This document shows positions 14,004 to 41,839 of a DNA stretch of 41,839 nucleotides, one piece after another. Source of the DNA: Gemmatimonadaceae bacterium (GTDB lineage Bacteria; Gemmatimonadota; Gemmatimonadetes; Gemmatimonadales; Gemmatimonadaceae); the NCBI GenBank assembly GCA_030647905.1, contig JAUSJA010000035.1, positions 1-41,839 on the forward strand, in the 5' to 3' direction. Both the position numbers and the translations under genes were made by a program. The notes under the pieces are model-generated. The model ran no database searches and was not told the origin of the DNA. It saw only the letters and a list, made by a program, of their open reading frames with translations. Numbering within the stretch: position 1 is the first letter of the stretch; each line of letters opens with the position of its first letter.

Positions 14004-14965
14004 GCGCCCTGAGCCGCGTTCTGCGACTCGGACCACGCGAAGGTTTTCACCAGACCCTCGGAGAGAGTTACCTGCGGCGCCCATCCGAGCAGCATGCGCG
14101 CTTTGGTCGCGCTGAGGAAGCTCTCCTGCTGCTCTCCCGGCCGTCTCGGCGCGAACACGATCTCCGCGCTGCTGAGCGCTGCCTCCTGAAGAAGCCGGGC
14201 CAGCTCGACGACTGAAGTTCCGAGGCCGGTACCGACGTTGAACGCCCGCGCGTCCACGCGCTCCGACGGAGGAAGCGGCATCGTCGCGCCGAGCCAGACC
14301 GCGCGTGCCACGTCGCCGACATATACGTAGTCGCGAGTCTGCATCCCGTCCCCGAATATCGTCAACGGCTTTCCGTCGAGGATGCGGTTGCAGAAGATCG
14401 CTACCACGCCCGCTTCGCCGTGCGGATCCTGGCGCGGCCCGTACACGTTTCCAAACCGCAGCGTGACGTGCTCCATCTTGTGGACACGTCCGTAGTATGC
14501 GAGATAGTACTCCGCCGCGAGCTTCGATATCGCGTACGGCGACTCGGGATCCTTGGGAAACGTCTCGACGTTCGGGGGAGTGTTGAAATTGCCGTAGATC
14601 GCGCCGCCCGTGGATGTGAATGCAATGCGCGTTTGCCGGCCGCTGTGCCTGATCGCCTCCAGCAGGTTCAGAGTGCCAAGAATATTGGTGGATGCGTCGT
14701 ACAGCGGATCGGCGACGCTCTTCCTCACGTCTATCTGAGCAGCCAGATGGACGACGACGTCGAACGCGCCATCGCGAACGATCCGCGCGGCTTCCGGCGA
14801 CGAAATGCTCGTCTCGTGAAGCACCGCTTTCCCGGGAAGATTCGCGCGACGCCCGGTGGACAGATCGTCAATGATCTCTACGTCATATTCCTTTTCGATG
14901 AACAGGTCGGCGACGTGCGAGCCGATGAAGCCCGCACCGCCGGTAACGAGCGCGCGCGGACTCAA
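14000..14965 (-). CDS. NAD-dependent UDP-sugar epimerase (GalE-like SDR)
   Basis: Extended short-chain dehydrogenase, most like UDP-glucose/UDP-GlcNAc 4-epimerases. The 321 residues begin MSPRALVTGGAGFIGSH, a Rossmann GxxGxxG at 9-15, and include the catalytic Y144-x3-K148 (SPYAISK) with the partner Ser/Thr near 118-119 (TSTGG). FGDGMQTRDYVYVGDV and the C-terminal ETKAR-like SATKARMLLGW are typical of nucleotide-sugar epimerases. The start is a TTG that overlaps the stop of the upstream small ORF as TTGA; the Rossmann fold begins four residues later, so no other start fits. The exact substrate is not visible. Being co-transcribed with Tol-Pal suggests envelope polysaccharide supply, which is inference. 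Confidence 0.9.
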   Translation of the reverse strand: MSPRALVTGGAGFIGSHVADLFIEKEYDVEIIDDLSTGRRANLPGKAVLHETSISSPEAARIVRDGAFDVVVHLAAQIDVRKSVADPLYDASTNILGTLNLLEAIRHSGRQTRIAFTSTGGAIYGNFNTPPNVETFPKDPESPYAISKLAAEYYLAYYGRVHKMEHVTLRFGNVYGPRQDPHGEAGVVAIFCNRILDGKPLTIFGDGMQTRDYVYVGDVARAVWLGATMPLPPSERVDARAFNVGTGLGTSVVELARLLQEAALSSAEIVFAPRRPGEQQESFLSATKARMLLGWAPQVTLSEGLVKTFAWSESQNAAQGA

Positions 14966-15234
14966 GCGTCACCATCCCGGTCCGGCTGCGTGCCATTCGC
15001 ATCGCGCTCCAGCGCGAACAGATATCTTGCCGCGTCAACCACTCCCAACCCCCTGCCGTTTGCAGCCGCCGCACGAAGTCGCAGGCTCGGCTCATGAAGA
15101 AACTCGTTCATTCGGTCACCACCGGCACGGCCACCATTCACCGGCGCGCTGACGCGCCGGGCGAATGGCAGCGCGGCAAGGGCCGCTGCCGCGATATAGC
15201 AGGATATTGCGGTGAAGTGGGCGATCACGATCAT
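14962..15234 (-). CDS. Small hypothetical membrane protein, possibly a truncated CcsA/YpjD-like remnant
   Basis: Unrecognised 90-residue product. One N-terminal hydrophobic segment (residues 2-24, IVIAHFTAISCYIAAAALAAL) is followed by a basic hinge and a soluble, Arg- and Ala-rich tail. The N-terminus resembles the first helix of cytochrome-c assembly proteins of the CcsA/YpjD type, but the remaining helices are absent, so it may be a decayed remnant or an unrelated small protein. Support for a real gene: the ATG is in place, the stop overlaps the TTG start of the epimerase (TTGA), and that unusual start would need coupling to an upstream translated frame. The MITE-like element ends 53 nt upstream. 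Confidence 0.5.
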   Translation of the reverse strand: MIVIAHFTAISCYIAAAALAALPFARRVSAPVNGGRAGGDRMNEFLHEPSLRLRAAAANGRGLGVVDAARYLFALERDANGTQPDRDGDA

Positions 15235-15278
15235 AATCGCCGTAATTTAATCCCCTCAGCGTATTGGCGAAGAGACCG

Positions 15279-15286
15279 CAGAGTAG
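15279..15286. repeat. Left target-site duplication of the MITE-like element
   Basis: The 8-mer cagagtag directly precedes the left terminal inverted repeat and recurs in the same orientation at 15618-15625 directly after the right one. A ninth base (c) also matches but overlaps the element end. Confidence 0.75.
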
Positions 15287-15617
15287 CGTAGTGGGTCAGT
15301 TTCGAGTTGGCAGGATGGGGGCGAGCCGCCCTGCGTGCCACGGAGACACGAAGACACGGTGAAAAACGCCTCAATCTTCGTATGTCGATTCCAGCAATCC
15401 CGGTCCAGGATGCCGATGCACTTCTATCGCAGCGCCGATAATACGTTCCGTGAGGCTCTCAGTCTCCTGATGGCTCAGGCTCAGGCTCAGGCTCATGCTC
15501 AATGGAGGCCCTCAGCACCGCACTATGCGTGGTCCCGCAGTTCCCCCAACAACCGTTTTCCTCCGTGTGCTTCGTGTCGTGGCAAGTGCAGAGACATGGC
15601 TAAACTGACCCACTACT
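15287..15617 (+). mobile_element. MITE-like non-autonomous element with 15-bp TIRs and 8-bp TSD
   Basis: The sequence gtagtgggtcagttt at 15288-15302 is repeated as its exact reverse complement at 15602-15616. Immediately outside, cagagtag occurs in direct orientation at 15279-15286 and 15618-15625, an apparent 8-bp target-site duplication. The 331-bp interior has no transposase. It contains a second, imperfect inverted pair (15336-15368 and 15554-15584, built on the cacgaagacac motif) and a GGCTCA hexamer array (15472-15501). A related copy in opposite orientation starts at about 41588, so the unit is dispersed. The autonomous partner is not in the window. An IS21-like source is conceivable from the TSD length, but this is speculation. 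Confidence 0.82.
15472..15501 (+). repeat. GGCTCA hexamer microsatellite inside the MITE-like element
   Basis: Four perfect ggctca units followed by a degenerate tgctca. The corresponding place in the second copy (reverse strand near 41770-41790) has only one perfect unit flanked by two degenerate ones, so the array length differs between copies. Confidence 0.85.
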
Positions 15618-15625
15618 CAGAGTAG
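15618..15625. repeat. Right target-site duplication of the MITE-like element
   Basis: Direct copy of the cagagtag at 15279-15286. It lies immediately outside the right terminal inverted repeat, as expected from a staggered-cut insertion. Confidence 0.75.
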
Positions 15626-15650
15626 CCACCAAGGCATTGATAAATCGTTC

Positions 15651-15676
15651 AAAAGGGGAGAACTACGGACCTCCCC
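15651..15676 (-). terminator. Intrinsic terminator downstream of the LysM gene
   Basis: Read on the minus strand, a GGGGAG stem, a 10-nt loop and CTCCCC are followed by TTTT. It lies about 90 nt after the stop of the LysM gene and before the MITE-like element, so it probably ends that transcript. Confidence 0.65.
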
Positions 15677-15766
15677 GCCGATGCCTCGTGCGGGTTGACG
15701 CTTTTCCCTGAAGGGTTTGCCACACCAGAGGGCAGGCTGAAGCACAAGTACCTCGCGACATCGCGA

Positions 15767-16948
15767 TCAGGGCGCTCTGGCGCTCAGACGGGCAGTCATT
15801 CCCGCCCGAATCCGCGGCTGCTCGTGGTCCACCACGATGGCCGTCAGAGCGTACGGAGTGACGCGAACCACTTCGGCGATCGCCGCGGGCACCGGAGGCG
15901 CAGGATATTTCGGATCAATGCTGTCGTCAATGATCGTGAACTGGTCTCCGACCCGCACTCCGTTCGCCGCCTTCGCCGTGAGAATTACATAGCTCTGAAG
16001 CGACGGAAGAACCGGGTCGCCTGCAACGTACATGACCTTCTCGGCCGGGCCCGCCGGCACGGCTACGGGCGTTCCGACGGACGGCTGTACGTCCTCGAGA
16101 GGCATCAGCGACTGGTCGAGCCTGATCTCGCCGAACTGCCTTACCACGCGCGCCATCGCTGGTTGGCCTGGCGAGACGGTTTCGACGCGCACGATGCCGG
16201 TCGGAATGACGAGCTGCGCCACGTCGCTCAGCTCGGGTCCGAGGCGATACACGAGCAGCAGATCTCCGGGACGGCCGGGACTCGTCCGGGGAAGCTCCAC
16301 GAAGATGCGGTCCTTCAGCTGGAATCTCCGGTCGCCTGCCTCGGCCTTGATTCCGGGACGGTCCCACGCTGCCGCCAGTCGCCCGCTGCCCTGCGGCCCG
16401 CCGAAGCGCTGTCCGAACGGCGCCGACTCGATCTCGCCACGCGGGACGCCTCCTCCAGCGCCGCGACCGATCACGTCTCCATTCGACTGAACGCGGTCGG
16501 CGACTGTTCCGGACGCCGCAGAGAAAACCGTGCGATCGGACTGCGGTGCGGGCTGCGTTGCAATGCGAGCCAGCACCTCCGGCTTCACTTCACTGGCCGG
16601 GATGCGGATCGTCTCGCCGGGATAGATCCAGTGCGGGTTCTCCACGATGTCGGTGTTCCGCTGAAAGACCTCGGGCCAGCGGAACGGATCCTTGAGATAC
16701 GCCTTCGCGAGATCCCACAGGGTGTCGCCCTTCCTGACGACGTGCGTCACCTCGTTTGGCCCCGCCGATACCGGCGTGAGTGTCGGCCACGGTTTCTGCG
16801 CCGACGGCTTCGGCGGTTCGCCCCGAGTCTGCGCCCCGGCAGGCGACTCTATGGCTGCCAGCGCGAGGAAGCCCGCGGCAGCGATTGCGATTCGGGAGAA
16901 ACGGCGCGGGAAAGCGGCTTGAGGGACCAGCATCAGGATGCTCCGCAT
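15767..16948 (-). CDS. Secreted LysM-domain protein
   Basis: A 393-residue exported protein with a signal peptide (cleavage near ESPAGAQ, residue ~40) and one LysM domain at about 67-117: HVVRKGDTLWDLAKAYLKDP, then WPEVFQRNTDIVENPHWIYP and GETIRIP. LysM binds N-acetylglucosamine in peptidoglycan or chitin. The rest (about 130-393) has no domain I recognise; it is beta-rich, with repeated GDxxLVYRLG and GDQFTII-type segments that recall the body of long LysM proteins of the peptidoglycan-binding type. An internal ATG at 16933, with GGAG at good spacing, may be the true start and would give a shorter signal peptide. It is separated from ssb by a hairpin terminator. Confidence 0.85.
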   Translation of the reverse strand: MRSILMLVPQAAFPRRFSRIAIAAAGFLALAAIESPAGAQTRGEPPKPSAQKPWPTLTPVSAGPNEVTHVVRKGDTLWDLAKAYLKDPFRWPEVFQRNTDIVENPHWIYPGETIRIPASEVKPEVLARIATQPAPQSDRTVFSAASGTVADRVQSNGDVIGRGAGGGVPRGEIESAPFGQRFGGPQGSGRLAAAWDRPGIKAEAGDRRFQLKDRIFVELPRTSPGRPGDLLLVYRLGPELSDVAQLVIPTGIVRVETVSPGQPAMARVVRQFGEIRLDQSLMPLEDVQPSVGTPVAVPAGPAEKVMYVAGDPVLPSLQSYVILTAKAANGVRVGDQFTIIDDSIDPKYPAPPVPAAIAEVVRVTPYALTAIVVDHEQPRIRAGMTARLSARAP

Positions 16949-41587: not shown

Positions 41588-41839
41588 CCGGGGGTCAGTT
41601 TAGCTCGGCAGTCGGTTCACAGGGTGGGAAACAGGCTAGCCGGTCCGATTTCACCTGAGAAAGTACTTGTCCTCTGCCATGTCTCTGCACTCGCCACGAA
41701 GACACGAAGAGCACGGAGGAAAACGGTTACTGGGGGAACTGCGCGGCCATGCAAAAAAGAGATGCTCAGTGCCTCCATTGAATATGAGCCTGAGTGATTG
41801 GGAGACAGAGAGCCTCATGGAACGTATTATCGGCGCTGC
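41588..41839 (-). mobile_element. Diverged second copy of the MITE-like element, truncated by the window edge
   Basis: The end gggtcagtttag (41592-41603) matches the terminal inverted repeat of the element at 15287-15617. From 41676 to 41839 the reverse strand closely follows 15429-15600 (shared blocks include cagcgccgataatacgttcc, aaccgttttcctccgtg and gtgcagagacatggc). Between them (about 41604-41675) is about 70 nt absent from the first copy. Orientation is opposite to the first copy. The other end lies beyond the window. With the leader it fills 41479-41839, which has no gene. Confidence 0.78.

Follow-up and report, generated by a model that had tools for sequence, protein, structure and literature searches.

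A probable IS1-type MITE with a GxxExxY nuclease relic inside it in a Gemmatimonadaceae genome

The element and its surroundings

The window, that is, the whole stretch of DNA analyzed here (41,839 nucleotides), is contig C35 of a genome assembly of 3.1 Mb in 37 contigs (G000). A short element of 331 bp, the features of which are listed in Table 1, lies downstream of a LysM-protein gene (15767–16948, minus strand) and upstream of an open reading frame (ORF) that starts at 15234, also on the minus strand. Its 15-bp inverted ends (TIRs), described in the first-pass annotation as perfect, are fully complementary, and the 8-bp direct repeats (TSDs) reported immediately outside them were recovered at the same positions. 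A single base separates the TSD from the TIR at either end (C at 15287, T at 15617), which is why the element is bounded at 15287–15617. The second, inner pair of inverted repeats is also real, but imperfect, its longest exact arms measuring 9 nt (15345–15353 and 15570–15578). The strand of the whole element folds 5.6 standard deviations better than 100 shuffles, and the inner repeats base-pair in the predicted fold. The reported lack of a transposase holds, given that 331 bp is too short for one, and the only coding remnant is that of a nuclease.

Table 1. Coordinates of the element in the window and of a second copy at the window's 3' end.
Feature	Position	Strand	Remark
Left TSD, CAGAGTAG	15279–15286	.	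Direct repeat
Whole MITE, 331 bp	15287–15617	-	Strand of the relic gene
Left TIR, GTAGTGGGTCAGTTT	15288–15302	+	
Inner repeat, CCACGGAGACACGAAGACACGG	15338–15359	+	Downstream flank of the relic GxxExxY gene
Relic of the GxxExxY N-terminus (TIGR04256 / PF13366)	15374–15496	-	HMM match plus ATG read by eye
Inner repeat, inverted partner	15563–15582	-	Upstream flank of the relic gene
Right TIR	15602–15616	-	
Right TSD, CAGAGTAG	15618–15625	.	Direct repeat
Part of a second, longer copy	41588–41839	-	Cut by the window's 3' end; other half on C19

The insertion had been placed 53 bp before the first gene of a block, the promoter of which it might alter. The distance is correct (ATG at 15234, minus strand), but the ORF (14977–15234) is a deletion fusion and not evidently an intact gene, in which the beginning of one gene runs into a C-terminus resembling glutamyl-tRNA reductase (PF00745, E 3.3e-4, just below the cut-off). 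Relatives hold approximately 2.4 kb more at this site, hemA included, and in three of them (G003, G006, and G012) hemA scores above the cut-off on the matching contig. The only hemA of the element's own genome is divergent (C17:135040–136248, 208 bits, cut-off 209.55). Since the ORF downstream is apparently a remnant, an effect of the insertion on a working promoter is doubtful. A consensus scan of positions 15200–15780 revealed no promoter-like or terminator-like site, and Rfam returned no match in 14800–16100.

The orthologous interval is readable in 13 genomes of the same genus, and in 12 of them the stretch examined is free of such an element. The expected empty site is thus found only at the level of the interval; the target word itself is not alignable, as these relatives are too distant. 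The thirteenth genome, G006, has a different MITE of approximately 320 bp in this interval (L099, 2998–3314 of G006:C256), with a related TIR pair and a 9-bp TSD, GCCCGCGCA, read by eye. This is an independent insertion, the same intergenic spot having been struck twice.

A further MITE of approximately 507 bp in the same genome (L100, 3093–3598 of G006:C330) has the same TIR, the other end differing by two mismatches, and the TSD TGTGAGTG. Long inner inverted repeats surround a possible four-helix-bundle C-terminus, a weak match (12–13 bits, E 0.07–0.14, cut-off 24). The interior of this MITE matched nothing in Pfam and no plasmid.

Copies, relic gene, and candidate mobilizer

The exact 15-mer TIR has 24 matches in the element's own genome (10 forward, 14 reverse), and none in a reversed control. 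The search for TIR-bounded copies and the alignment of their flanks, as proposed in the first-pass annotation, recovered the element at 17 places, which correspond to about 14 insertions once the pieces at the contig ends are joined. The distance between the TIR tips is 176 bp in copies C33b and C6, 329 bp in the window, and 374 and 389 bp in C32 and C18b, while the longest form, estimated by eye at approximately 440 bp, is split between C19 and the end of C35. These differences in length look like internal deletions. As C19 ends in the other half of this copy with 11 bp of shared flank, contigs C19 and C35 are probably neighbors; the right TIR of the pair is damaged. Nine contigs (C15, C16, C18, C19, C29, C31, C32, C33, and C35) end in or just past a copy.

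With rigid boundaries, six of nine flank pairs have an exact TSD (8 bp in five, 9 bp in one), C26 matches at 8 of 9 positions, and C2 and C29 fail. Twelve left and 13 right flanks were also compared (156 pairs), scoring shared words of at least 7 nt. Such words are shared within one copy at C35a, C26, C18b, C33b, C18a, and C6, and between contig-end pieces at C16/C32, C29/C31, and C19/end of C35, so that TSDs of 8–11 bp mark nine insertions, three of them assembled from contig-end pieces. C18a and C29 also share a word of this length, their right flanks being one and the same overlapping contig end. Copy C2 has no TSD in this comparison. The chance per flank pair is 0.0025 in GC-rich random sequence, which gives an expectation of about 0.4 among the 156 pairs. 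The 24 exact TIR matches against none in the control, together with the recurrence of the TSD rule at other copies, show that the structure is not due to chance.

When the sites are joined without the element, no ORF of at least 100 aa is interrupted at C35a, C26, or C6, and ORFs of this size cross the join at C18b, C33b, and C2, where the ORFs alone are no evidence of genes. A gene for an IS110-family transposase (L013, 2088–2924, minus strand) lies close to copy C24. The element has all the marks of a MITE: TIRs and TSDs, a short length (176 to approximately 440 bp), no transposase, and several copies. The kind is already known, and what is new is the broken nuclease cassette inside.

The minus strand of the element starts a GxxExxY gene (TIGR04256/PF13366, PD-(D/E)XK), which is not intact in the element, as a stop and a frame-shifted junction follow after about 50 codons (the other copies were read by eye). 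The N-terminal fragment of the relic scores 40.2 bits with PF13366 (cut-off 22) and 28.9 bits with TIGR04256 (cut-off 35). In a search of the genome with TIGR04256, the copies on C19, C32, C24, and C18b score above the cut-off (39.5–43.3 bits), and the window copy reaches 25.3 bits, below it, with a match at 15374–15454 and the ATG read by eye at 15496. The inner "cacgaagacac" repeats flank the relic, just as intact GxxExxY genes are flanked by theirs. In six copies (C32, C16, C19, C18b, C33a, and C29), reading by eye against the intact gene L047 of G013 recovers a frame-shifted C-terminal stretch similar to LINGMKRLSL. In the longer copies, these stretches appear to follow one common deletion, and the gene of the founder was therefore probably already broken.

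Within the relic gene, a short GGCTCA tandem (15472–15495) varies in copy number among the copies of the MITE. A second GxxExxY reading frame (L056, 405–725 of G000:C32; profile positions 9–115) lies next to copy C32, the insertion point of which is within CACGCAGAGGCGCAGAG-type sequence resembling the flanks of GxxExxY genes.

Within the bacterial family, 7 of the 179 genomes have the exact TIR, one of them being the element's own. In G076 (contig C6), the identical 15-bp TIR stands at both ends of a 2.2-kb segment with an 8-bp TSD, GCGCACTC, read by eye, and the pair encloses a 285-aa transposase (PF03400, 25.3 bits, cut-off 24.1; NF033558, E 6.4e-14). A second TIR pair, in G133, encloses a related transposase, which is also above the cut-off of PF03400. 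The NCBIfam IS1 model NF033558 gives the two transposases scanned 52.3 and 34.7 bits (cut-off 100), so that both are taken as divergent members of IS1. Next to a related transposase, the TIR also occurs in G067 and G013. In-frame stops interrupt the transposase genes of G133 and G067, and a relative of the G076 transposase is present in five of nine genomes tested. Both ends of the G076 element read GGTAGTGGG, and the left end of the MITE reads CGTAGTGGG; the two differ at the outer left base, which is C in the MITE (A in C8) and G in the G076 element. For an insertion sequence of the IS1 family, ends starting with GGTGGTG and 8-bp TSDs have been published (PMC6382973).

Some IS1-type transposons of the family carry passengers (L091, 1485–4764, in G133; L093, 3027–6609, in G013). 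The passenger of the former is an antitoxin ORF of the HigA type that weakly matches IrrE, and HTH/IrrE-like and DNA-methyltransferase-like genes, read by eye at contig ends, lie beside the latter. A mini-element made of the TIR only (L103, 3938–3969 of G133:C141) consists of two TIRs back to back, 2 nt apart, one of them mismatched.

The element's own assembly yielded no relative of the G076 transposase and no other element bearing the TIR; a tolerance of up to two mismatches adds six sites, against 11 in the control. The suggested comparison with insertion sequences of the same genome thus came out negative, an autonomous partner that shares the TIR having been found in other genomes of the family and not here. 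The lack of a resident partner lowers the completeness of the case, not the name MITE, as not every MITE has one.

The element is very probably an IS1-type MITE, mobilized in trans, with a founder derived from a broken GxxExxY cassette. The assignment to IS1 follows from the TSDs and from the presence of the same TIR in the IS1-type transposons of related genomes, and the earlier proposal of a non-autonomous element moved by a transposase encoded elsewhere gains support from these elements, from the common ends of the copies, and from the nine insertions with TSDs. We infer transposition in trans, a certain order of events, and a transposase either lost or unassembled in this genome. A GxxExxY PD-(D/E)XK cassette, i.e., the gene and its own CACRRAGR-type flanks, would have come between such TIRs, its gene would then have been broken by an internal deletion, and the family would subsequently have reached about 14 sites, while further internal deletions shortened its members from approximately 440 to 176 bp. 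An IS1-type transposase, supplied in trans, would recognize the TIR plus one outer base, move the element, and leave TSDs of 8–9 bp; this transposase would since have been lost from the genome, or may be unassembled. This reading accounts for the repeat at which nine contigs break off, and assigns its mobilizer to a class.

Duplications of about 8 bp are also produced by the IS66, IS256, IS21, and ISL3 families, and the absence from this genome of an IS1 transposase with this TIR would fit the action of one of these families, with the resemblance to the IS1 ends being coincidental. This is improbable, however, given that IS1-type elements in two genomes of the family have the same 15-bp TIR at either end, that this TIR lies beside an IS1-type transposase in two others, and that both of the TIR pairs that enclose a transposase hold one of IS1 type.

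It is less probable still that the GxxExxY nuclease and the inner repeats move the element while the outer TIRs remain passive. The inner repeat does occur by itself, scattered over related genomes, and GxxExxY genes elsewhere are bracketed by it, but the boundaries and the TSDs of the copies fall at the outer TIR and not at the inner repeat, and some copies of 176–178 bp (C33b and C6) have lost most of one inner repeat and still have TSDs. Around the inner repeats themselves, no TSD at a fixed offset was found at 21 loci. Ordinary intergenic sequence, repeated by chance or as a terminator, as the position between the 3' end of a gene and the start of an ORF might suggest, is refuted by the copies at 17 places and the nine TSD-marked insertions, and is also opposed by the 12 of 13 relatives in which the interval has no copy and by the lack of a terminator-like site in the consensus scan.

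Repeats around GxxExxY genes

GxxExxY genes in general are bracketed by related repeats, which are mostly, but not only, inverted. A first sample was taken from named genomes of many bacterial phyla and a few archaea; 70 of its 80 loci had 250 nt on both sides and were scored, and 10 fell short on one side. In this sample, drawn from the best 80 of at least 584 loci, the median inverted flank score is 17.5, against 9.5 in cross-locus pairs, a score of at least 14 is reached at 50 of the 70 loci (12.7% of the cross pairs), and 23 loci exceed the 99th percentile of the cross pairs. As a control, 154 other ORFs of comparable size were scored in the same contigs, and 5 reach 14. A second sample, from the same bacterial family, retained 45 of 48 loci (one frame was not open and two were too short), with a score of at least 14 at 33 loci (6.2% of the cross pairs) and 29 above the 99th percentile. 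The inverted score is higher than the direct score at 49 of the 70 loci from the best 80 of at least 584, and at 30 of the 45 in the family. Direct repeats also reach 14, at 19 of those 70 loci (again from the best 80 of at least 584) and at 11 of the 45, and some are long, so that the bracket is not purely inverted. Long direct repeats (scores of 60–134) occur instead of, or besides, inverted ones at L170, L197, L199, L206, and L133.

A frequent form of the flank is led by ACC[AG]C, with a period of 8–9 (CACRRAGR). Both neighbors are co-oriented at 49 of 66 GxxExxY loci, compared with 55 of 107 other genes, a modest difference under crude ORF calling. The TIGR02436 (four-helix-bundle) genes have even stronger inverted flanks, which are long and locus-specific (L216–L245). 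In 26 of 30 loci (two partial matches and two out of frame at the assumed start were left out), the median is 40, against 8.75 in cross pairs, with 25 loci reaching 14 and 20 above the 99th percentile.

The repeat also occurs in dispersed form. The pattern CACRRAGRCACRRAGRCAC matches in 26 of the 179 genomes of the family, with a maximum of 117 matches, in G173; the backward control is uninformative, as the CACRRAGR pattern is nearly symmetric. Both orientations are present in 14 of 20 chosen stretches, namely in all 10 selected as pairs and in 4 of the 10 selected as lone hits. Two stretches, L318 and L321, are compact hairpins, and several seem, by eye, to begin just past a stop codon or to enclose terminator-like sequence.

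A single GxxExxY gene, with the repeat on both sides, is found in each of G169, G173, and G184, and some relatives have dozens of copies of the repeat and a single gene, as in G173, with its 117 repeats. A GxxExxY gene is present in 22 of 25 genomes with the repeat and in 15 of 25 without it, a mild association in hand-picked sets, and a profile search found no GxxExxY match in three genomes with repeats (G113, G116, and G158).

Alignment of 48 GxxExxY proteins shows no variation at E22, D62, E72, K74, Q86, and Y90, and 76 of 77 fit a loose E-D-ExK pattern. The fold is predicted with a pLDDT of 94.7, and its nearest structures, which match weakly (best E 3.7e-3, none below 0.001), are SSO0001 (a Cas4 protein), Hjc, and lambda exonuclease. 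No sequence relative was found in the PDB.

These observations allow the hypothesis that the nuclease spreads the repeat by which it is bracketed. The GxxExxY nuclease and the CACRRAGR repeats may possibly pair in the manner of RAYTs and REPINs, with the nuclease, or an activity that it recruits, recognizing and spreading the repeat or its hairpin. The gene-less genomes with repeats, the many repeats per single gene, and the mild association among genomes call for caution, and keep this proposal tentative. If it were true, the common CACAGAGACACAGAG-type intergenic repeats would gain an owner, the MITE would be the fossil of one nuclease-repeat cassette captured by IS1-type ends, and the TIGR02436 genes would be a second family on the same plan. 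More broadly, the present results link an intergenic repeat that is common and has lacked an explanation to a nuclease family of unknown role, and make the origin of the repeat testable with a single small protein and a single hairpin. The family is named in PMC8934634, PMC12085832, and PMC9756366. No report of a link between the gene and the repeat was found in the open-license PMC literature, which is weak evidence of absence.

Comparison with known systems

A close published parallel is MITEAba12 (PMC6382973), which is likewise short, with TIRs in common with an insertion sequence, TSDs, several copies, and a mobilization in trans that is also inferred. That element measures 111–114 bp, has 9-bp TSDs, and resides with its partner, ISAba12, whereas the present element, whose partner is of IS1 type and was not found in the genome, holds a broken nuclease cassette that has inverted repeats of its own. 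In G076, G133, and G013, of the same bacterial family, IS1-type transposons have the identical 15-bp TIR, and an 8-bp TSD in G076, but carry a transposase, and in some cases passengers, where the MITE has no transposase.

The REPINs and RAYTs (PMC3733652, PMC3116915) resemble the GxxExxY system, in which apparent hairpin repeats, dispersed in several genomes, accompany one gene that has such a repeat on either side. They differ in that the bracketed gene encodes a tyrosine transposase rather than a PD-(D/E)XK nuclease, and for the CACRRAGR repeat, mobility is only hypothesized.

In the 23S rRNA intervening sequences that encode S23p (PMC4990558), a small ORF of similar length also lies between complementary, long-stem ends. 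GxxExxY, by contrast, is a nuclease, and no rRNA is present at the two GxxExxY loci tested. A location of GxxExxY within 23S rRNA was considered and rejected, given that a 15-mer signature, with up to two mismatches, matched two loci at which Rfam found no rRNA; none was detected at L134, at L135, or near the element of the window, the other loci having been checked by short signatures only. The strong inverted flanks of the TIGR02436 genes in relatives recall the intervening sequences of S23p, which is a four-helix bundle.
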